Below the pieces are notes generated by a model that was given only the letters and a program-made list of their open reading frames with translations, was not told the origin of the DNA and searched no databases. Shown here in pieces: positions 4,568 to 33,174 of a stretch of DNA of 34,487 nt. The position numbers and the translations under genes were made by a program. The stretch's first letter is position 1, and each line of letters starts with the position of its first letter. The DNA is from a bacterium (GTDB lineage Bacteria; Latescibacterota; Latescibacteria; Latescibacterales; Latescibacteraceae), in NCBI GenBank assembly GCA_021372535.1, contig JAJFUH010000075.1:1-34487 (forward strand). Direction: 5' to 3'.

Positions 4568-5419
4568 CTATCGATGCGATGCTGTCTTGAGTGCTTCAGC
4601 GGCGCGAACGCACCGGGGATTAATTTCGAGTGCTTTTCTGAAATGCTCCAGCGCCTGTTCCCGGTCACCACGTTTCATAAGCTCCGATCCGAGGTCGCAC
4701 TGAACCGATGCGTTGTCCGGATCGATTCCGAGCGTTTTGGATAGCTCTGCAATCGCACCATCAATGTCGCCGTCCATCGAGAGTGTACAGGCGATCTCAC
4801 GGTGGGTTTCGATATCCACGGAGTCAATATCGAGAGCCTTCTTGAATTGTTCCATTGCCGCTTTACGGTCGCCATTTTCCCTGAGAGCCATTCCCATGAT
4901 CCGGCAGGCATCGCTCCGAGCGGGATCGACGGCAAGGGCGCGTCTGCAATACCCTGCAGCGCCATCATAATCGCCAAGGTCATATCGTACGGAACCCAGC
5001 AGTACAAGCGATTCGCCATCCTGCGGTAACACCCTGAGCGCCCGTTCGTAGTTTTCGGAGGCGCCGGTGTAGTCCTTTTTCTCCTGGAGAAGTTTCCCCG
5101 CATAAATAAGGGCATCCACATCATCGGGCTTAATGGCAAGGGCGCGCTCATAACTTGCCAGTGCGCCGTCGCTGTCGCCGAGATACCTGAGACAATGGCC
5201 AAGCAGATAGTGCCCGTTGAAATCGTTCGGAGCGATATCGAGAAACTTTCTAAAGCCTTGCGCCGCGTTCTCGTAATTTCCCTGTATATACTGATCCATG
5301 GCGCCTTCGAAGATCGCCTCGCCCATATACCGTGACTGAGCGGCTGAACAATACGGAATCGCCAGCACAACTGCGAGCGATAGTACGAACTTTTTACATA
5401 TCCTGAGGGCAAAGTACAT
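4568..5419 (-). CDS. Periplasmic TPR-repeat protein
   Basis: The ATG at 5419 gives 283 aa; an in-frame TTG at 5428 is a less likely start. AAGGA lies about 11 nt upstream of the ATG. A signal peptide (KKFVLSLAVVLAIPYCSAAQS) is followed by about seven canonical 34-residue TPRs filling the protein, for example NGHYLLGHCLRYLGDSDGAL and SLVLLGSVRYDLGDYDGAAG. TPRs mediate protein-protein contacts and no catalytic domain is present. It is flanked by an SDR gene 115 bp downstream and a cytidylate-kinase-like gene 297 bp upstream on the same strand, which does not reveal a function. Confidence 0.9.
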   Translation of the reverse strand: MYFALRICKKFVLSLAVVLAIPYCSAAQSRYMGEAIFEGAMDQYIQGNYENAAQGFRKFLDIAPNDFNGHYLLGHCLRYLGDSDGALASYERALAIKPDDVDALIYAGKLLQEKKDYTGASENYERALRVLPQDGESLVLLGSVRYDLGDYDGAAGYCRRALAVDPARSDACRIMGMALRENGDRKAAMEQFKKALDIDSVDIETHREIACTLSMDGDIDGAIAELSKTLGIDPDNASVQCDLGSELMKRGDREQALEHFRKALEINPRCVRAAEALKTASHR

Positions 5420-5716
5420 ACAATACAATTCCTTATATTATGTATCGGACATGCATCACCGGATCATTTTTCTGTATGAAAATAACAGTATTCTAACGCT
5501 TCTCATCTGTTTACGATACAGGAAGTTTAAAAAAATATTCCGCCGGATCAATTATATCGGAAAGGAACGGATAGAAGAATAAATGCCGCCTGATTCGGTA
5601 CCTTACAGAGTAACAGGATAACCGGTTCGTGTACATTCGCCGGAAATGTAAAACCGATCCGGTAAATAACCACTACATACCCGTCACCTCGACCATACGG
5701 TGACAGGCCGGAATCT
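5420..5716. other. Intergenic region between TPR and cytidylate-kinase-like genes
   Basis: About 300 bp without a credible gene. A short inverted repeat GTCACC / GGTGAC (5683-5688 with 5699-5704) lies just past the end of the kinase-like gene but lacks a U-tract. No RNA gene or clear promoter was recognised. Confidence 0.4.
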
Positions 5717-6538
5717 TCAACGGCGGGGGCCTTTACGGCGGTCTTCCATGCGACGGTCCGGTTTATTGTATGACCTTATGGGACGGCCTTCGTGGAAAAC
5801 GGCATTCTCCATGTCACGGAGTGTCCAGATATTCGTCGGATCACGGCGCTCACCTTTTCTCCGTCCTTTCAGGCGACGGTCGGGGCCGCGGCGTTCTCTG
5901 ACTCCGGGGATAAAGTCATATGTTCTGCTGAACTGACGGGTGGCTTCAATAATGATGTACGCAGCCGCGTCGATACCGAGCTTAGAAGAATCGATAGTCA
6001 TATGATATGCTTTCGAATCGTACCAGTCGCCATGAAAATACCGCTCGATGAAGTAAGCGCGCATACGGTCGGACTTTTTCATCATTTCACGGGCATCATC
6101 GGAAGAAATGCCATAAAGACCGCTGATACGCCCGATACGAAATTCATCGTCCGCAAATACGCGGACATGAAAAGCCCTGTCGAAGTCTTTCAGTATGTAC
6201 TGCCCGCCGCGGCCTACGATAACCATTTTCCCCTCTTCGGCAAGACCGCTCACAACATCACTGCAGAACTCGATATATTTTTCAGGGTTGAGATGCTCTT
6301 TGTCTTCGGTCATGATTTTTCCGATACGGGGCGCAATAAAATTCTTGAGCCACTCAACAGCCCGTGAATGGTACTTTTCGTCAAAATTCTCCACTTCCTC
6401 GATGCTGACACCGGCCCGCTCGGCGACTCTGAGTATAAGACCGGAGTCCACAAGGTTATATTTTAATCCTTCGGCCACTTTTTGTGCAATTTCGTCACCG
6501 CCGGAACCGAGAAGCCTGGAGATAGTCACAACAGCCAT
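5717..6538 (-). CDS. Cytidylate-kinase-like protein with Arg-rich C-terminal tail
   Basis: 273 aa from an ATG preceded by AGGGAGG. Residues 1 to about 200 resemble the cytidylate-kinase-like P-loop family (Cytidylate_kin2): VTISRLLGSGGDEIAQKVAE forms the phosphate-binding loop, VIVGRGGQYIL follows, then FHVRVFADDEFRI and the lid-like RMRAYFIERYFHGDWYDS. The family is related to CMP kinase but has no settled substrate. The last ~70 residues are unusual: two strongly basic segments (RRGPDRRLKGRRKGERRD and KPDRRMEDRRKGPRR) flank WTLRDMENAVFHEGRP. Similar RR-rich stretches occur in linkers of bacterial signalling proteins. A nucleic-acid or membrane contact is possible but unproven. Confidence 0.82.
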   Translation of the reverse strand: MAVVTISRLLGSGGDEIAQKVAEGLKYNLVDSGLILRVAERAGVSIEEVENFDEKYHSRAVEWLKNFIAPRIGKIMTEDKEHLNPEKYIEFCSDVVSGLAEEGKMVIVGRGGQYILKDFDRAFHVRVFADDEFRIGRISGLYGISSDDAREMMKKSDRMRAYFIERYFHGDWYDSKAYHMTIDSSKLGIDAAAYIIIEATRQFSRTYDFIPGVRERRGPDRRLKGRRKGERRDPTNIWTLRDMENAVFHEGRPIRSYNKPDRRMEDRRKGPRR

Positions 6539-6564
6539 AATGCCTCCCTTATTTTTACCCCGCC

Positions 6565-6595
6565 ATTATACTCTGTTCCATATAAATAATGTAAA
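6565..6595 (-). promoter_or_regulatory. Candidate promoter of the cytidylate-kinase-like gene
   Basis: On the minus strand TTTACA (6595-6590) is separated by 19 nt from a perfect TATAAT (6570-6565), roughly 30 nt before the ATG. The -10 is strong; the spacing is long. Confidence 0.4.
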
Positions 6596-6783
6596 ACAGG
6601 AATAAAGACAACATTTTTTCGGGATTACCCGGTTCTTTTTAAACAGGAATAATTTGCATAATCCAAGAAACCGCAGTTTTTGATACATAACGGTCAATCG
6701 GACAGAGAGAAAGACCGCGTTCCATTTCAAGTTTTGAATCAGCCCCGATAAAGCACTATGAGAGGCGTATTCCCCGAAATCCG

Positions 6784-6813
6784 TTGACAGTCCCCATCAT
6801 TGTTTAGTATACT
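6784..6813 (+). promoter_or_regulatory. Sigma70-like promoter of the M42 peptidase gene
   Basis: A perfect TTGACA (6784-6789), an 18-nt spacer and TATACT (6808-6813, 5/6) lie about 50 nt before the GTG start at 6864. This is one of the best housekeeping-type promoter matches in the window. Confidence 0.6.
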
Positions 6814-6863
6814 TGCCGTTATATTCCTGAAAAATGCAATCATTTTTACAGAAAGGTACTCCC

Positions 6864-7922
6864 GTGAGAAAGAAATCGCTCGATTTTCTAAAACATATCC
6901 TGTCAAGCCCGAGTCCTTCCGGCTATGAACAGCCTGTCCAGCAGCTCTGGCGCGACTATACAAAGCTGTTCGCCGATGTCCGCACCGACAGCCATGGCAA
7001 CACGATCGGGGTGCTCAATCCGAAAGGTACCCCGCGAGTCATGTTTGCCGGTCACTGCGACGAAATCGGATTCCTTATCCGGTACATCGACGATAAAGGT
7101 TTCCTCTATTTCGGACCTATCGGCGGTTTCGATGAATCCATTATCCCGGGACGCCGCGTGATGATACACACCTCGAAAGGCCCCGTTCCCGGCGTCATCG
7201 GTAAATCACCCATTCATCTCATGAAACCGGACGACCGTAAAAAAGCGTCCGAAATCAACGATCTCTGGATTGACATCGGCGCAAAAAACAAAAAAGCGGC
7301 AGCAGGGCTCGTTTCCATCGGCGATCCTGTCACCTATCTCGATGATTACCTCGAATTGAAAACGGGACTCGCCGTTGCCCGGGCCTTCGATAACCGTATC
7401 GGCTCGTTTATCGTCGCCGAGATTCTCCGGGTGTTGTCGGAGTCGAAAACGCTTAAAGCCGCAGTGCACAGCGTATCGACCGTGCAGGAAGAAATCGGTC
7501 TCAGAGGCGCCCATACGAGTGCATACGGTGTCGATCCCCAGATCGGCATCGCCACTGATGTGACATTCGCGACCGACCAGCCGGGAGTCGATCCGAAGCA
7601 TGTCGGCGATATCAAGCTTGGCGGAGGCCCCGTCATCGCCCGCGGCCCCAATATCAATCCCCGGGTCTTCGACCTGCTCGTCGAAACGGCGAAAAAGAAG
7701 AAAATTCCGTACCAGATAGAGGGTATCTCACGGGCGACAGGCACCGACGCCAATGCCATACAGCTGACAAGAGCCGGTGTCGCAGCCGGGCTCGTCTCCG
7801 TGCCGCTGCGTTACATGCATACGCCGGTTGAGACTCTCGATCCGGGGGATGTTGAAAACACGGTGAAACTCATGGCATTTTTCGCGGAGGCTCTGACCCC
7901 CGATATGAGTTTCATCCCATAA
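6864..7922 (+). CDS. M42-family metallopeptidase (glutamyl aminopeptidase-like)
   Basis: The GTG at 6864 has AAAGG 7-8 nt upstream and gives 352 aa; an in-frame ATG at 6834 lacks a ribosome binding site. M42 enzymes are dinuclear-metal aminopeptidases forming large cytosolic tetrahedral complexes. All metal and catalytic positions are visible: H64 (FAGHCDEIGF), bridging D176 (RAFDNRIG), E209/E210 (QEEIGLRGA), D232 (IATDVT) and H319 (RYMHTPVE). No signal peptide is present, as expected for a cytoplasmic enzyme. Annotations of this family as cellulase or CelM are historical. The gene precedes deoC by 88 bp on the same strand and may share its transcript. Precise peptide specificity cannot be stated. 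Confidence 0.93.
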   Translation: MRKKSLDFLKHILSSPSPSGYEQPVQQLWRDYTKLFADVRTDSHGNTIGVLNPKGTPRVMFAGHCDEIGFLIRYIDDKGFLYFGPIGGFDESIIPGRRVMIHTSKGPVPGVIGKSPIHLMKPDDRKKASEINDLWIDIGAKNKKAAAGLVSIGDPVTYLDDYLELKTGLAVARAFDNRIGSFIVAEILRVLSESKTLKAAVHSVSTVQEEIGLRGAHTSAYGVDPQIGIATDVTFATDQPGVDPKHVGDIKLGGGPVIARGPNINPRVFDLLVETAKKKKIPYQIEGISRATGTDANAIQLTRAGVAAGLVSVPLRYMHTPVETLDPGDVENTVKLMAFFAEALTPDMSFIP

Positions 7923-12314: not shown

Positions 12315-13691
12315 TTATTTAATGAGCGTGGCTTTTACCGTTCGGGCAAAATTGCCGTCAGTTACCCGAATATAATACATCCCGGACGACAGGGAAACCG
12401 CATTCCAGCCTACCATATAAGTCCCCGCGCCCATGAACGTATCGGTGAGCGTATCCACCCGCTGCCCCGCACTGTTGAACACATCGATGCGGATCACGCC
12501 CGGCTCGGCAAGGGTAAAGGACACCGATGTCTGCGGGTTGAAGGGATTCGGATACGCCGCGCCGACTGTAAAGGTTTCGGGAGTGGAATCTGCGCCTGCC
12601 ACATCAGTGGGCGTCTCTTTGCCTGTGTATACCATCGAGTAGGGCGGAAGCTCTGTAGGATAATAATCCAGTCTCGGCGGGTTTTCATCGGTGAACGGGC
12701 TCAGGACATACAGGCCGGGCTTTTCGGAATCGGTCGACCCGACATAGAGAAGCCCGCCCGACATGACCACTCCGCCGCCTGCGCCGGGAACCGGCAGTTT
12801 CTCGCCGAGCGTTCCGTCATTATAATTGAATTCACGTGCCACAGTATTCCAGCTTTCATCGAACAGTAGCACAAGCCCGTACCCGGCGGAAAAAGTCGCC
12901 ACACCGGATATACTCCCCCCGGCATCGGCTTCGCTGACGAGCTTCTGCTGCGTAGCGGAGGGATTGGCAAGGTCGAGCTTCCATACTCCCTCGTCGGAAA
13001 TACCATATGTCGTCCCGGCAAGATAGAGTGTGTCGCCCGTGAGCGAGCACGACTGCGGATTTTTTATTGCAAGCTCAATTCCCTGAACGCCTTCGGCGGC
13101 CGTATCCATATCGACTATGGAATCAGTCGCCGGATCGATCGCGAGAAGAACCGCGGTTCCGGCTGCATACTGGCTCATATCGTACCGCTGGAGAACGACA
13201 TAGACCCTGCCCTTATAGACAAATCCCATACATGCCTCAGGTGAACCGTCCGCGTCCGCCCACGGAGAAATATCGATTTCCCCCTTTTTGAACGATGCTT
13301 CTGTTTTTGCGGCTGGATCGACAACCAATATCCTGTCAGTGCCATAGAGGAGCAGATACGCTTTCGATTCGAAAAATACTATGTCGCGCGGATTCGATTT
13401 CGCGCCCACGCTGTACTGGTAAATCCTGTCATTACCGGAAATGGAAGCCGGGTTGTACTTGCTTACTGCATCAGCTCCAAAGCCCTCAAGGATATAGAGA
13501 TACGTGCCATCCGTCTTGACACGTGAATCCTGAAAAACCGGGAGAACATTATCGGAAAGAATTCCGGTTTCAGTCGAAAAAACGGCCGTATTCCCTGTCT
13601 GGTAATCCGAGGTTATCATGACAAGCGTTCCACCGGAGACGGCATGGACACAAAGCATAAGAATTATGGACATCAGGGATGCATACTTCAT
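12315..13691 (-). CDS. Exported beta-propeller protein with FlgD-Ig/T9SS-like C-terminal domain, in the B12 operon
   Basis: 458 aa. A signal peptide (MKYASLMSIILMLCVHAVSG) is followed by about 330 residues of propeller-like repeats of the YncE/NHL appearance (TDGTYLYILEG, NPRDIVFFESKAYLLLYGTDRILVVD, MGFVYKGRVYVVLQRYD, LTGDTLYLAGTTYG). Residues ~376-458 form the PNPFNP (381-386) domain ending in FARTVKATLIK, typical of FCB-group C-terminal sorting/FlgD-Ig domains. GGAG precedes the ATG. It lies between the TonB receptor (246 bp upstream) and btuF (about 60 bp downstream) inside the riboswitch operon. In Bacteroides the BtuB partner BtuG is a seven-bladed surface propeller that binds B12; this protein may fill that role. 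That is inference: no sequence match to BtuG is claimed, and it has no lipobox. Confidence 0.8.
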   Translation of the reverse strand: MKYASLMSIILMLCVHAVSGGTLVMITSDYQTGNTAVFSTETGILSDNVLPVFQDSRVKTDGTYLYILEGFGADAVSKYNPASISGNDRIYQYSVGAKSNPRDIVFFESKAYLLLYGTDRILVVDPAAKTEASFKKGEIDISPWADADGSPEACMGFVYKGRVYVVLQRYDMSQYAAGTAVLLAIDPATDSIVDMDTAAEGVQGIELAIKNPQSCSLTGDTLYLAGTTYGISDEGVWKLDLANPSATQQKLVSEADAGGSISGVATFSAGYGLVLLFDESWNTVAREFNYNDGTLGEKLPVPGAGGGVVMSGGLLYVGSTDSEKPGLYVLSPFTDENPPRLDYYPTELPPYSMVYTGKETPTDVAGADSTPETFTVGAAYPNPFNPQTSVSFTLAEPGVIRIDVFNSAGQRVDTLTDTFMGAGTYMVGWNAVSLSSGMYYIRVTDGNFARTVKATLIK

Positions 13692-16290: not shown

Positions 16291-16480
16291 GCTCCCCAAT
16301 ACCCGTGGGCAGGCAGCATCTCATAAACAGGGCCGGTCTTCTGACTTCCGGATCGTTCTACTCGCCGAGCCTTCCCATCATTTAAGACAGTGGCATACTT
16401 CGGCTTTCGTTCCCGGTTACAGCGGCGGGTCCGTAACGGATTTTCACCGTTTTCCCAATTGCTAATTCCCTGTATTGAAA
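16291..16480 (-). promoter_or_regulatory. Cobalamin (B12) riboswitch
   Basis: Read on the minus strand, the leader contains the diagnostic B12 box AGTCAGAAGACCGGCC (16346-16331), preceded by GCCACTG and GGGAAGG elements. The conserved 5' block contains GGTGAAAATCCG and CCGCTGTAACCGG. P1 can form between CAATAC (plus coordinates 16472-16477) and GTATTG (16297-16302). An intrinsic terminator follows. Coenzyme binding is expected to favour termination and shut off btuB-propeller-btuFDC, and possibly cobO. Confidence 0.95.
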
Positions 16481-16508
16481 ATATAAGCATGTTCCTGGAA
16501 TCAGGCAA
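16480..16508 (-). promoter_or_regulatory. Candidate promoter of the B12 operon
   Basis: Minus-strand TTGCCT (16508-16503), a 17-nt spacer and TATATT (16485-16480) place the start site near 16474, at the first base pairs of aptamer helix P1. The promoter lies directly beside the terminator of the upstream DUF4382 gene. Confidence 0.5.
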
Positions 16509-27904: not shown

Positions 27905-27942
27905 TTGACAAAACTATAGACAAGTGTAAATTTACAGTTGTA
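27905..27942 (+). promoter_or_regulatory. Promoter with tandem BlaI/CopY-type operators
   Basis: TTGACA (27905-27910) is followed by two dyads of the TACA-N2-TGTA type used by BlaI/MecI/CopY repressors: GACAAGTGTA (27919-27928) and the perfect TACAGTTGTA (27933-27942), centres 14 bp apart. The region between also forms TGTAAATTTACA. A weak -10 (TAAATT, 27927-27932) would be covered. The site lies 44 bp before the blaI-like start, so autorepression is expected. Confidence 0.7.
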
Positions 27943-27985
27943 AATAAACCTTTCCTGTCCATTTCTTCATATGTCGAGGTATGTT

Positions 27986-28363
27986 ATGGTAAATGAAAAA
28001 TTCACACGTCTACAACTGCGCATCATGCAGGTGCTCTGGCAGAGAAAACGGGCGACCGCGCGGGAAATAACCGATGCCCTTGCCGCGCTGGAACCGATCG
28101 CCCACTCGACAGTGCAGACTCTGCTCAGAAGACTCGAACGCCGGAAAGTAATCGATCATGATGAAAACGATGCCACGTTCGAATACTTCCCGCTTGTTCG
28201 CAACGAAAGAGTGGTACAGCAGATGTTCCAGGACTTTCTCGACCGCCTTTTCGCGGGTTCCCCGCAGGGCATGGTTTCTTATCTGCTCAAAAACCGTTAT
28301 GTAACCCCCGGGGAGCTTAAAGAACTCTCCGAGCTTTCGGAAAAAAGGAGCAATAAGCGGTGA
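27986..28363 (+). CDS. blaI: BlaI/MecI/CopY-family transcriptional repressor
   Basis: The ATG at 27986, preceded by GAGG at 8-nt spacing, gives 125 aa; an in-frame ATG 15 bases upstream is less well supported. The winged-helix domain fills residues 1-75 (FTRLQLRIMQVLWQRKRATAREITDAL, then HSTVQTLLRRLERRKVIDHDE), and the C-terminal helices that dimerise and are cleaved during induction follow. The repressor should bind the TACAGTTGTA-type dyads in its own promoter. Its stop overlaps the start of the M56 peptidase gene (GTGA), the arrangement of classic blaI-blaR1/mecI-mecR1 pairs. Confidence 0.93.
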   Translation: MVNEKFTRLQLRIMQVLWQRKRATAREITDALAALEPIAHSTVQTLLRRLERRKVIDHDENDATFEYFPLVRNERVVQQMFQDFLDRLFAGSPQGMVSYLLKNRYVTPGELKELSELSEKRSNKR

Positions 28364-31311
28364 ACGGAACACAACTGCAGGCTTGGTTGTTAATCCTCTC
28401 CAATTATGCAGCCACCGCGGGGGCGAATCTTTTCCTCCAGTCCGGTGTAGTGATCACGGTTGGCATTGCGGCTGCGCATGTGCTGAGGAAACAGGGGGCG
28501 GCTGTCCGTTCTCTGGTGCTTCGGGCATTTCTCACAGCGGTTTTCCTATGCCCGCTCATGTGGATCATTATTCGGGAAACGGGTATCCGGGGATTCGTTA
28601 TTCATATACCACTCATCACCTCCGTGCAGATGTCTTCCCCTGCTGCTCTGTTGCCAAAGATTCGGAACGATAGTGACGACGTTCATTCCTATTCCGCCCC
28701 TCAGTCTTTACCCGGCGGCTCTCCCGACCGGTATCACTATCCTGCGCCTCCTGGTGTCAAAGCGCCTCTCCTGACATCAGACCGCATGGATTCCATGACG
28801 AATGAACCGGGATTCTCCGCTACGAGCCATAAAACAATTCACGTGCAGGCGCGGCGATTTCTCCCGCTTAACGGACGGGCACTCGTCTACCTTTCGTTTG
28901 CCATTCTCTGGATCACGGTATCTCTCTTTCTTATAGTCAGACTTATTCTGCATCATCTGTACATCATACTCATACGTCGTTCAGCTGTCACCGCAAAGGA
29001 ATCATTCCGTACAGCCTGCGCCAGAGCGGCACGGGAGATCGGCATCAGTCCTCCCCTTATTCTTCAAAGCCCTTCGGTGTGGAGTCCGTTTCTTGTCGGA
29101 ATCGTAAAGCCTTGCATCTTTCTCCCTCTCGGGAGGCAGGAAGCGTTGCTCGAAAGCCGGGCGGTTTTCCTCCATGAACTCGCACACTATCGCCGCCGCG
29201 ACAACCTCTGGAACCTCTTCCGGCATATCGGAGTCGCCCTTATCCCTTACCAGCCGCTTATGTGGATATTATCCCGGCTGATCGAGGAGACGAGCGATTA
29301 TGCCTGTGACGATGTGGTGATGAGCGCCACCGGTAATCACAAGGCATATGCCCGGAATCTCATTGCCATTGCAGATGCCTGCAATCCCAGAGTCCATGAA
29401 CTCGTCACAGGGGTGGGTATTGTCTCTGCTTCCCCGCTGCGCCGCAGAATAGAGCGGATTCTCAATGCTTCCCGGGCGATATCTCTCAAAGTGAGCTCAT
29501 ATATGCTCGTGACTGTTTATTCGCTCTGTCTTTCGGTGGTCTTTCTTGCCGGGCTCGTGGGTATTCGCGGAAAAAGCTTTGCTCAGATACGGACTATCCC
29601 CGAAACAGTCTCGCGCAAGGCAGCGGAGGTCACTCTCGCGGCGGTTTCAGCTGTAAAAGAGCAGGTAAGCAAGTCGCTGCAACCCGAACAGGCAGAATCT
29701 CTCGCATATCATGCGATTCCTCCTCTACAGAAAACACACGACCGGGGTGAAGGTGTTCCGCTGGTTTCCGGACAGCCGAATACCGCACACGATGATTCAG
29801 CCGGTTCCCAATCGTCTGAACCCACCGTTACCGATGCAGTAATGGAACACGCATCCGGTGACGGGCTTTCCATGAGCAATTTCCAGGCGGCTGTTTTACA
29901 TGAATCGGAGCCTGCCGCAGCGGAAACACTGGAAGATACTTCGGAGAAGACCTCTTCAGCACGCCAGACCGACGCATCACAGCCGGAATCAGAACCGGTG
30001 GCGTCTCCGGTTCTTTCTCCCTCTCAAGTTGATATCCGATTCGAAGGAACGGACCATCGCGAGTATGTGACTGCACAATCCGGCCCCCTCGAAATAGCGG
30101 TTCCGGACGGGCTTCCCTCAACTCTGCTGGAGAGTCTTGAGAACGGTCAGGAAAATCCGGTGTGGTCTCCTACGGGAAAACTCATCGCTTTCACCGGGAG
30201 AGGGGGTCAAGGCATCTGGGCGATTCCCGTGCAGGGCGGCAGACCGTCTCTCGCGCTTGACAATACGGGAGAGTCTCTATACGACGGGAGCGTGTCGCCG
30301 AGGGGAAAGACGCACATCCTCTGCTTCACTCCCGATGGCGGCGAAATAACCTTCGTGAAATACATCCCGAAAATAAACGGTTTTGAGAAAAAAACCGCCG
30401 CTGAAGGACTGTCTCTCATGCCGGTCATCGAGAGTGTCAACATTCGCACCGGCGAGCGCAGGGAGATTGTGAAGGATGCAAGCGAAGGATGCTGGAGCCC
30501 TGACAGCAGGTACTTTGTATATGTGGATGGCGACTACTATGGCATCTCCGTACTCGATTTGACCTCCGGTGAATCAAAAAGGATATCCGGCACCGGGAAA
30601 TCTCCCACGATTACGCCCGATGGTGAATTCATCATATACGTTGACTGGAGCTGGGACGCTACAGATCAGCTCTTCCGCGCCCCGATCGAGGGCGGCCAGC
30701 CGGAGCAGCTCACCGGCGAGGGACTCTGGTGGAACCCGAAATGCTCGCCTGACGGCGAATGGGTGCTCTGTTCAGGGTGCGTCATCGAGTACGGATCGTA
30801 CGCTCTGCTGAGGGCGTATAACCTCAAAAACCAGATGGCGTACGATCTGGTCATCAACAAATCGGAGACCGCGGAGATGGGTGACTGGTCACCAAGCGGC
30901 CGTCAATTCTGCTACACGCTCTATGGCGGAGCGTTCATCAACGGCAAGAATATCAAGAAATCTACAATTTACATAAGCGATTTCGGACTGTGGAAATCAG
31001 CCCAACCGGATACTGCAGCATCTTCGGAGCCGGTTGAATTCAAACTCATCGGGAATTTCCCGAACCCGTTCAATCCTTCCACCACGATACGGTTCTCACT
31101 TCCGGGGGATGGCTTCACGGAACTGGTCATCTATTCGATTACCGGCCAGAAAATCCGGGAGCTCGTTTCACAGGAACTTTCCTCAGGGATACATTCGGTT
31201 GTGTGGGACGGGCGTGATCAAAACGGAATACCGGTGTCATCCGGCATTTACATTTCTCGGCTGAAGATGGAAGGAAAGGTTGAGACTGGTCGGATGACAC
31301 TGGTTAAATAG
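28360..31311 (+). CDS. M56 (BlaR1/MecR1-like) membrane protease with PD40 propeller and FlgD-Ig sensor region
   Basis: 983 aa from a GTG overlapping the repressor stop. Three hydrophobic segments (~20-40, 48-70, 178-200) precede the zinc motif H272-E-L-A-H276, a downstream acidic block E309-E-T-S-D313, and a last transmembrane segment (~380-402). Beyond the membrane there is a Ser/Glu/Pro-rich linker (~410-575), a PD40/TolB-like propeller (~598-880, NPVWSPTGKLIAFTG, GDWSPSGRQFCY) and a PNPFNP (901-906) FlgD-Ig domain to the end. BlaR1 relatives carry a penicillin-binding sensor here; none is present. By family analogy, ligand binding outside should trigger proteolysis inside and loss of the repressor. 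The ligand is unknown. Confidence 0.9.
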   Translation: MNGTQLQAWLLILSNYAATAGANLFLQSGVVITVGIAAAHVLRKQGAAVRSLVLRAFLTAVFLCPLMWIIIRETGIRGFVIHIPLITSVQMSSPAALLPKIRNDSDDVHSYSAPQSLPGGSPDRYHYPAPPGVKAPLLTSDRMDSMTNEPGFSATSHKTIHVQARRFLPLNGRALVYLSFAILWITVSLFLIVRLILHHLYIILIRRSAVTAKESFRTACARAAREIGISPPLILQSPSVWSPFLVGIVKPCIFLPLGRQEALLESRAVFLHELAHYRRRDNLWNLFRHIGVALIPYQPLMWILSRLIEETSDYACDDVVMSATGNHKAYARNLIAIADACNPRVHELVTGVGIVSASPLRRRIERILNASRAISLKVSSYMLVTVYSLCLSVVFLAGLVGIRGKSFAQIRTIPETVSRKAAEVTLAAVSAVKEQVSKSLQPEQAESLAYHAIPPLQKTHDRGEGVPLVSGQPNTAHDDSAGSQSSEPTVTDAVMEHASGDGLSMSNFQAAVLHESEPAAAETLEDTSEKTSSARQTDASQPESEPVASPVLSPSQVDIRFEGTDHREYVTAQSGPLEIAVPDGLPSTLLESLENGQENPVWSPTGKLIAFTGRGGQGIWAIPVQGGRPSLALDNTGESLYDGSVSPRGKTHILCFTPDGGEITFVKYIPKINGFEKKTAAEGLSLMPVIESVNIRTGERREIVKDASEGCWSPDSRYFVYVDGDYYGISVLDLTSGESKRISGTGKSPTITPDGEFIIYVDWSWDATDQLFRAPIEGGQPEQLTGEGLWWNPKCSPDGEWVLCSGCVIEYGSYALLRAYNLKNQMAYDLVINKSETAEMGDWSPSGRQFCYTLYGGAFINGKNIKKSTIYISDFGLWKSAQPDTAASSEPVEFKLIGNFPNPFNPSTTIRFSLPGDGFTELVIYSITGQKIRELVSQELSSGIHSVVWDGRDQNGIPVSSGIYISRLKMEGKVETGRMTLVK

Positions 31312-31404
31312 ATAGGGCTCTGAGGCACTAAGGCACTGTCTCCATAATGAATTCCTTCTCATCTTCAGATACATTTCACCTCATTCCATAAGGAGGAATG
31401 GGCC

Positions 31405-33027
31405 ATGAAACACACAACTCACACACCGAATGGGACCGTATCACAGTCCCGGAACGTGAAAGCTGTACTGCTTGCGTTCGCCCTGCTGGCCGTAATTTTC
31501 ATGATAGCAGCGCCCGCGCCCGCCCAGGACGATTTCCCGTGGGCAAAAAGGGTAGTCATTTCCGGTCCTACAAGTGAAGAGCTGAGATCAAAAAACATAT
31601 TCAAGATGATTGACTTGCCCGATTGCCCTCAGTGGGCGAAGGATATATTCAGCCAGCCCAATGATGTCTATGATCTCGAAGACGATCCTATTAACAAAAC
31701 AATGACCCTGCTTCAGTTTCTTCATACCTATAACCGGAATCCTTTTTTTACTCCCGATGGGAAATGGATTATATTCGATGATTTCCTTTTCGCCGCATGG
31801 ATGATTCCGGTAGAGGGCGGTGAGCCTCGTCTTGCAAGTGATTGGTATATGAGTTTCATCCGCGACTGGAATTCGCCTGACAAAAAAATTATCGGGGGAT
31901 CCGCGGGCATCTGGCGGACATGCGGTCTCACCCCTGACGGTAAAGAAGTAGTCGGTGTCCGCAAGCTCTTCGTTGACGAACAACAGGGGGACAATTCTTA
32001 CACCGTCACCATGCCGGACGGTACCACCGTGCAGGCAGGCGAATTGCTCACTCGCTCCACCACTCTTGTCTCCCGGAACATCGACACCGGAGTGGAGCGT
32101 ATCATCTCCAAGGACGCCATACAGGGGCGTTGGAGCCATGACGGACGTTGGTTCGTATTTGTGAAAAGGGATCCCAATATGTTTATCACGCCGAAAGGCT
32201 GGAACCTGGACGTTTGGGAGCCGATAATAACGGGAATGTATGTCAGGGACATGTCCAACGGGAACGAGTGGCAGATAGCTCAGATGGCAACCTGCCCCTG
32301 CTTCAGTCCGGATGATTCCATGGTCATCTGCAGCATGAAGGACGCAAACGGCCTCTGGCAGATATTCAGTATTCCCTGCGAGGGCGGTGTCCCGAAACAG
32401 CTCACCTTCTACGGTCCGAACAACGATGGCAGGAACGCCCGTGTTTCCGATGTTTCTCCGGATGGTCAGTGGATTCTCCATACGGGAGATTTTACTTCCG
32501 GCTCTGAAACAAAAACCGGACTCTGCGTTTCTAATATGGTCACCGGTGTGTCGTATCCACTTTTCCCGGATGCGCAGTGTGTAACTACCGAAGGCTCATG
32601 GTCTCCGGATGGCAGGAAAATTGTATTCTCCGCAAGCTACCCCGGATTTGAAGACGGTGTCAGGGTAGGTGATCGTTATGCCATTTACGTCATGGATTTC
32701 GATCCAATGACCTTCAGAAAGCCATCGGCAGTTGCCGAGTTGGTTCCTGCCGGCTTCGCTGTCACCGGCAACTATCCGAATCCGTTCAATCCATCGACAA
32801 CCATTTCGTTCAGCCTGTCTGAAATGGGATCGACGACTCTTACCGTATACGATGTGCTCGGCAGAAAAGTCCGGACACTTCTGGATGCTCAGTTACAGGC
32901 GGGGAAACACAGCGTTGTGTGGGATGGAAGAGATGATGGCGGGAATATGGTTTCTTCCGGAGTCTATATTCCGCAGCTCGTCAGCGGGGGAAATGTTGCT
33001 GCGGGACGCATGATGCTGACAAAATGA
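31405..33027 (+). CDS. Secreted PD40 propeller protein with FlgD-Ig/sorting domain, paralogue of the M56 sensor
   Basis: 540 aa, start supported by AAGGAGG. A long signal peptide ends at APAQD. The rest is a PD40-type propeller (NPFFTPDGKWIIFDD, GRWSHDGRWFVFVKRD, CFSPDDSMVIC, DVSPDGQWILHTG, GSWSPDGRKIVFSA) and a C-terminal PNPFNP (458-463) FlgD-Ig domain ending GRMMLTK. It parallels the sensor half of the M56 protein blade for blade (RIISKDAIQGRWSHDGRWFVFV against REIVKDASEGCWSPDSRYFVYV) and ends almost identically. It follows the M56 gene by 93 bp and is probably in its operon. Ligand binder, target or competitor of the sensor are possible roles; none is proven. Confidence 0.87.
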   Translation: MKHTTHTPNGTVSQSRNVKAVLLAFALLAVIFMIAAPAPAQDDFPWAKRVVISGPTSEELRSKNIFKMIDLPDCPQWAKDIFSQPNDVYDLEDDPINKTMTLLQFLHTYNRNPFFTPDGKWIIFDDFLFAAWMIPVEGGEPRLASDWYMSFIRDWNSPDKKIIGGSAGIWRTCGLTPDGKEVVGVRKLFVDEQQGDNSYTVTMPDGTTVQAGELLTRSTTLVSRNIDTGVERIISKDAIQGRWSHDGRWFVFVKRDPNMFITPKGWNLDVWEPIITGMYVRDMSNGNEWQIAQMATCPCFSPDDSMVICSMKDANGLWQIFSIPCEGGVPKQLTFYGPNNDGRNARVSDVSPDGQWILHTGDFTSGSETKTGLCVSNMVTGVSYPLFPDAQCVTTEGSWSPDGRKIVFSASYPGFEDGVRVGDRYAIYVMDFDPMTFRKPSAVAELVPAGFAVTGNYPNPFNPSTTISFSLSEMGSTTLTVYDVLGRKVRTLLDAQLQAGKHSVVWDGRDDGGNMVSSGVYIPQLVSGGNVAAGRMMLTK

Positions 33028-33092
33028 CAGTTTAAGCTGCAAATGGGTGTCCGGTCAGAAATCTAACCCGGAAAATTCAAAAATGATACCCG

Positions 33093-33120
33093 GCAGGGAC
33101 AGGTCACGGCCTGTCCCTGC
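33093..33120. terminator. Bidirectional hairpin between convergent genes
   Basis: A perfect 11-bp GC-rich stem (33093-33103 with 33110-33120) with a 6-nt loop lies between the convergent propeller and HDOD genes. The 3' flank is only mildly U-rich, so this is a probable rather than textbook terminator. Confidence 0.55.
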
Positions 33121-33174
33121 TTGATTATTACAATTTTACCCGGACACTCTTGAATATATTAAAAAAATTCACAC

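Follow-up and report, generated by a model that had tools for sequence, protein, structure and literature searches.

In the BlaR1/MecR1-BlaI/MecI systems of Staphylococcus and Bacillus, a gluzincin membrane protease of family M56 carries an extracytoplasmic C-terminal sensor and is encoded next to a winged-helix BlaI repressor; to our knowledge, BlaR1/BlaI is known nearly exclusively as a beta-lactam resistance switch. How inner-membrane regulators sense cargo of the type IX secretion system (T9SS) or of the cell surface is an open question even in Porphyromonas gingivalis (PMC7712824). Here, we describe how a receptor from a Latescibacteraceae genome is built, how its operon is arranged, and the evidence that its modules were exchanged; in it, a BlaR1-type protease is joined to a beta-propeller and a T9SS-type tail. 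Its gene occupies positions 28360 to 31311 (+) of the window, by which we mean the whole stretch of 34,487 nucleotides analyzed (contig JAJFUH010000075.1, GenBank assembly GCA_021372535.1). Numbered C75, this contig belongs to a draft genome of 5.35 Mb in 236 contigs, and the evidence consists of sequence and prediction from a lineage represented by drafts, probably assembled from metagenomes.

The receptor and its three-gene operon

The receptor gene is a single intact frame with a GTG start, encoding 983 amino acids and four hydrophobic segments. Residues 1 to 405 (28360 to 29574, +) form the membrane and protease part, as delimited by Pfam, alignment to BlaR1 (8EXP), and AlphaFold2 (AF2): Peptidase_M56 (PF05569) matches residues 179 to 366 (5e-23; 82.1 bits against a curated cutoff of 31) and the HExxH motif of this multispanning membrane domain reads HELAH (residues 272 to 276; 29173 to 29187, +), which together place the protein in family M56. 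There follow a disordered linker rich in Ser, Thr, Pro, and Glu (residues 406 to 569; 29575 to 30066, +), with a predicted local distance difference test score (pLDDT) below 50 in AF2, then a TolB-like PD40 beta-propeller (residues 570 to 877; 30067 to 30990, +; Pfam PD40, 1.5e-8), and finally an Ig-like domain of the T9SS type A sorting type (residues 893 to 983; 31036 to 31308, +).

An AF2 model built with 16 homologues has an ordered M56 part, propeller, and Ig-like domain within these boundaries, with disorder across the linker and in a loop at residues 89 to 169 between the second and third transmembrane segments; the relative placement of the parts in this model is meaningless because its predicted template modeling score (pTM) is 0.40. 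A sensor-only model (27 sequences) reaches a mean pLDDT of 86. TolB is the top Foldseek match for both models, and in sequence searches of the PDB, the protease part matches BlaR1 (8EXP and 8EXS) and the propeller matches TolB. Scores against the equivalog models are low: blaR1_generic of NCBIfam gives 70.8 bits, under its cutoff of 400, and the TolB model TIGR02800, matched in part only, gives 43.6 bits, far under its cutoff of 343. As in BlaR1 and MecR1, a BlaI-family repressor adjoins the receptor; a C-terminal penicillin-binding sensor with an acylated serine is absent, the propeller standing in its place, and neither Pfam, PDB sequence search, nor Foldseek found any penicillin-binding or transpeptidase domain in the receptor.

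The C-terminal domain had initially been labeled FlgD-Ig. Pfam does match FlgD_ig here (6.6e-7), which is a label for a fold, but the same residues match TIGR04183, the model for the T9SS type A sorting domain, with 26.7 bits against a curated cutoff of 23, and a T9SS sorting-type domain is the better description. The genome also encodes SprA, the outer-membrane pore of the T9SS, in a 2,140-amino-acid frame, as well as 118 tails of the TIGR04183 type; SprA is present in 60 of 64 Latescibacterota genomes. The receptor, although membrane-anchored, thus resembles T9SS type A cargo in having a tail over the cutoff in an SprA-bearing genome.

The functional unit exceeds the receptor gene: it is a three-gene operon, at about 27905 to 33121, that includes a secreted partner. 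The best promoter-like site on the + strand, a sigma-70-type TTGACA-N16-TAAATT (27905 to 27932), is overlapped by a perfect palindrome, TGTAAATTTACA (27925 to 27936), after which comes TACAGTTGTA (27933 to 27942), an instance of TACA-N2-TGTA, which we take to be the bla/mec operator pattern. Inferred from these motifs, a putative BlaI operator (27925 to 27942) would lie over or just past the -10 element; each motif occurs once in the window, at this promoter. The repressor gene (27971 to 28363, +; 130 amino acids) overlaps the receptor gene by 4 bp, and Penicillinase_R (Pfam, 7.3e-27; 94.5 bits against a cutoff of 22.6) assigns its product to the BlaI/MecI/CopY family, the NCBIfam models for BlaI, CopY, and MecI matching under their curated cutoffs. 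Beyond the receptor, across a 93-bp gap in which we saw neither a promoter nor a convincing terminator, lies the gene for the candidate output or cargo of the operon (31405 to 33027, +), a 540-amino-acid protein with a signal-peptide-like N-terminal stretch (read from the sequence), a PD40 propeller (1.7e-14), and a T9SS C-terminal domain (FlgD_ig, 8e-10; TIGR04183, 31.1 bits). An intrinsic-terminator-like hairpin of 13 pairs (33092 to 33121, +) ends the operon.

These results bear out much of the initial annotation, which had described an M56 protease of the BlaR1 type, coupled to a BlaI repressor by an overlapping start and stop, with a linker, a PD40 propeller, and an Ig-like domain as its extracytoplasmic half and no penicillin-binding fold in the sensor. 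Its term "one-component" switch is unapt, since receptor and repressor are two proteins. Its suggestion that something other than beta-lactams is sensed agrees with the absence of the canonical acylated domain, through which beta-lactam sensing is therefore unlikely; the sensor is probably a non-beta-lactam one, for which the polymer, peptidoglycan fragment, or protein partner named in that annotation would be candidate ligands.

Recurrence of the cassette and history of its modules

Three other genomes encode full-length homologues of the receptor on independent contigs, in keeping with the initial annotation's view of the frame as a real fusion rather than two joined genes; among the 64 Latescibacterota genomes, full-length matches are limited to the receptor's own family. 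We counted receptor cassettes by hand from gene maps of four sampled genomes of this family, and the counts are not of independent events. The cassette order is promoter/operator, blaI, protease-propeller-tail gene, and one or more genes for secreted propeller proteins. All 13 propeller-receptor cassettes with upstream sequence have blaI directly upstream, a secreted propeller protein comes next downstream in 11 of 11, and the tail is carried by all 11 complete propeller receptors. Among the 13 M56 genes of the window's own genome, which also has 16 BlaI-family matches, five encode propeller-tail receptors (window, C152, C88, C219, and C59), each with a tail over the curated cutoff, with blaI before it, and with a secreted propeller-tail protein after it, the partners' propellers being PD40 or Reg_prop; the cassette is also found in the three other genomes. 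The initial annotation had overlooked the secreted partner, the T9SS nature of the tail, the repetition of the operon, the exchange of modules between sensor and cargo, and the altered zinc ligand Asp313.

The remaining M56 proteins of the genome carry tetratricopeptide repeats (TPR), carboxypeptidase-regulatory domains, other domains, or the tail alone. In the C218 cassette (L024 8908-13902, G000:C218), a TPR sensor replaces propeller and tail, and the gene for the secreted propeller protein is preceded by a second CTTGACA promoter, which has a similar dyad. Many carboxypeptidase-regulatory (Ig-like) repeats make up the extracytoplasmic part of two M56 receptors (L020 112-4686, G000:C94, and L017 5305-7926, G000:C5); contig C5 also holds a blaI gene with a cassette-type promoter, followed by a gene for a secreted thioredoxin-like protein instead of an M56 gene (L017 2747-4781). 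The 454-amino-acid M56 receptor of C38 (L015 8028-9775, G000:C38), which adjoins its own blaI, has an extracytoplasmic part that is barely more than the tail. Six M56 proteins with a tail and without a propeller belong to a second Latescibacterota family, f8 (L083, L084, L089, L092, L093, and L103), where the tail was apparently acquired separately. In the window itself, a cobalamin riboswitch (16314 to 16506, -; Rfam RF00174, 109.9 bits) precedes a run of minus-strand genes, one of which (12315 to 13691) encodes a propeller-like protein bearing a T9SS-type tail.

The promoter recurs along with the genes. CTTGACA lies upstream of blaI in 16 of the 18 regions examined, including those of all 13 propeller cassettes, against a mean of 0.14 and a maximum of 2 in mononucleotide shuffles. 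The combined promoter and operator pattern, CTTGACA-N14-18-TAAATTTA, matches six sites in the 5.35-Mb genome, and its reverse matches none. Four of the six precede blaI genes (on C5, C75, C218, and C219). Another precedes a propeller-tail cargo gene without an adjacent blaI (C206:59184-61343; L114 5185-7344), a possible member of the regulon, and the sixth, on C135, is upstream of a pilus-assembly-like gene and may be due to chance.

In the protease tree, the propeller and TPR receptors group in a single clade (support, 98/98), whereas in the propeller tree, the branches of sensors and of secreted proteins intermingle. A single origin of the sensor propellers was rejected (p-AU of 7.5e-62), in an analysis in which the sensor group was set by gene context before the tree and a contig-end fragment (L047 6504-7448) was counted as a probable truncated receptor; further uncertainty comes from aligning divergent propellers. 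Because the protease halves are one clade while the propellers mix with those of cargo, it seems that receptors have exchanged sensor modules both with one another and with secreted cargo. The sensor propeller of the C219/C408 cassette, like that of C513, is sister to the secreted protein of its own cassette. The cassette on C20 of genome G003 has its closest BlaI (70% identity) and protease (41%) in the C88 cassette; its propeller shares 58% identity with the window propeller, the runner-up reaching 36%.

An outward search from the window covered 386 genomes at a strict threshold, which M56 fusions with very different propellers would escape, and its only further propeller-bearing M56 protein is in an unrelated genome of another phylum, G336, where BlaI overlaps an M56-PD40 fusion (L124 4638-7369, the fusion being 5057-7369). 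The G336 protease falls outside the clade of the propeller and TPR receptors. A plasmid collection gave partial matches only. We found no literature report of M56 fusions to a propeller or to T9SS modules in Latescibacteria, which is weak evidence of novelty because coverage was incomplete, with most subscription papers outside it.

The proposed switch and competing readings

On balance, we think it probable that the locus is a BlaI/BlaR1-type derepression switch whose sensor derives from T9SS cargo of the same cell. BlaI would sit over the -10 element of the operon promoter and repress it, and the M56 receptor, anchored in the inner membrane and with a cytoplasmic active site, would display propeller and tail at the end of a flexible linker some 165 residues long. 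When this cargo-like module is engaged, either by a ligand or partner that the propeller binds or, via the tail, by the T9SS machinery, the protease would become active, its active site being freed to cut BlaI, and repression of blaI, the receptor gene, and the secreted propeller-tail gene would be lifted. The signal might be a ligand common to the sensor and the secreted propeller, as beta-lactams are common to BlaR1 and its output, an option favored by the TPR receptors and the G336 fusion, which lack the tail. It might also be the T9SS itself, via the tail, as favored by the tail-only receptor of C38 and the precedent of PorA (PMC7712824). BlaI binding and cleavage, the direction of the response, and the signal are all drawn by homology to BlaR1 (PMC9834060).

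The catalytic residues whose roles are taken from BlaR1 (PMC9834060) are largely kept: H272, E273, H276, D281, D317, Y330, and R363 are equivalent to H201, E202, H205, D210, D246, Y261, and R294, respectively. The loop equivalent to the BlaR1 autocleavage site has a conserved G-x-G-hydrophobic motif in most propeller and TPR receptors. Several observations weigh against the switch as proposed. The third zinc ligand is Asp313, in Asp313xxxAsp317 (29296 to 29310, +), as opposed to Glu in BlaR1 (E242xxxD), and protease activity is uncertain for this reason; Asp occupies the position in 11 of 12 propeller receptors and in both TPR receptors, whereas the other M56 proteins compared keep Glu, as does one propeller receptor (G003 C109). 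The Glu expected of a gluzincin at this position is lacking from the window receptor and from 10 of its 11 propeller paralogues. In an alignment by eye, the cleavage-site residues of Staphylococcus aureus are unconserved in the BlaI proteins, which keep just a hydrophobic residue at the P1'-equivalent position. T9SS tails usually sit on soluble exported proteins, and on a membrane-anchored receptor, the tail may be a mere structural leftover. The window's sensor propeller and secreted propeller are not sisters; strict pairing of sensor and partner, which holds for C219/C408 and C513, fails here and was rejected. Lastly, the sensor of the G003 C20 cassette is of the window type, but its output belongs to another class.

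Were Asp313 to inactivate or much weaken the protease, the receptor could act as a nonproteolytic anti-repressor or scaffold, and the change from Glu to Asp runs through nearly the whole clade. Every other catalytic residue is conserved, however, G003 C109 retains Glu, and Asp is able to ligate zinc in the asp-zincins; judged by its residues, the receptor is likely an active protease, and we consider a nonproteolytic role quite improbable. Nor does an assembly artefact, a pseudo-fusion of two genes that a draft of 236 contigs might suggest, deserve more than negligible weight: the architecture is shared by 11 complete genes in four genomes, including independently assembled public contigs, and the full-length homologues in independent genomes rule it out.

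The remaining alternatives turn on what the tail and linker do. If the propeller binds a soluble glycan, a peptidoglycan piece, or a protein in the periplasm, then tail and linker could be passive remains of a cargo gene, a reading to which we give tentative credence in view of the TolB-like fold, the recent history common to sensor and cargo propellers, and the existence of a tail-less, short-linker M56-PD40 fusion in another phylum, but which sits poorly with a tail over the cutoff in every propeller receptor of the window's genome and with a long linker in every receptor measured (174 to 241 residues in nine sensors). Conversely, the receptor could report on T9SS status through putative recognition of its tail, receptor and cargo competing such that occupancy or backlog sets protease activity and cargo synthesis. 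Such a role would suit the constant presence of the tail in complete propeller receptors, the C38 receptor that is almost tail alone outside the membrane, the tailed f8 proteins, the wide occurrence of SprA, and the precedent in P. gingivalis, where tail-bearing PorA feeds PorXY-SigP signaling (PMC7712824); the TPR receptors of the same protease clade lack the tail, which is thus dispensable in some members, and we regard this role as doubtful. A trans-envelope receptor is thinkable given a tail of the T9SS sorting type and the length of the window linker, whose 164 residues in AF2 suffice, with a contour length of more than 50 nm at the customary 0.35 nm per residue. The T9SS would then export propeller and tail to the surface, leaving the protease in the inner membrane and the linker stretched across the periplasm, and surface contact would be reported straight to the cytoplasmic repressor via proteolysis. 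We hold this arrangement to be unlikely.

Comparison with known systems

Taken as a derepression switch with a cargo-derived sensor, the window locus belongs to a lineage of Latescibacterota that seems to have multiplied the BlaR1/BlaI switch and reused it for surface-protein control, with sensors akin to its own secreted proteins. This suggests a way in which a phylum with a T9SS might tie its output of surface proteins to the state of the envelope or surface, and the cassettes form a naturally modular series in which to ask how unrelated sensors signal through M56 receptors.

With BlaR1/MecR1-BlaI/MecI, the locus shares the M56 membrane protease and its equivalent catalytic residues, the extracytoplasmic C-terminal position of the sensor, the adjacent winged-helix repressor, and a TACA-N2-TGTA-like site over the promoter. 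It differs in its sensor, a TolB-like propeller and T9SS-type tail on a long disordered linker; in the Asp at the position of the third zinc ligand; in belonging to a phylum with SprA and T9SS tails; and in its downstream gene, which encodes a secreted propeller protein rather than beta-lactamase or PBP2a. In G336, likewise, the BlaI gene overlaps that of an M56 protein whose sensor is a PD40 propeller, but this fusion has a short linker and a protease of another clade and lacks both the tail and an adjoining secreted propeller protein. Type A cargo of the T9SS has in common with the receptor a C-terminal sorting-type domain over the curated cutoff of TIGR04183; such cargo is soluble and secreted with a cleavable signal peptide, whereas the receptor has four transmembrane segments. 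TolB of the Tol-Pal system is the nearest solved fold for the window propeller, yet it is a free periplasmic protein, and the propeller is part of an anchored receptor and well below the TolB equivalog cutoff. In the PorA-PorXY-SigP circuit of P. gingivalis (PMC7712824), too, a T9SS-tail protein feeds an inner-membrane regulatory pathway for secretion genes; there, however, the sensor is a histidine kinase, PorY, distinct from the cargo protein, and the circuit has no protease-repressor pair, whereas in the window the cargo-like module is fused to the protease.

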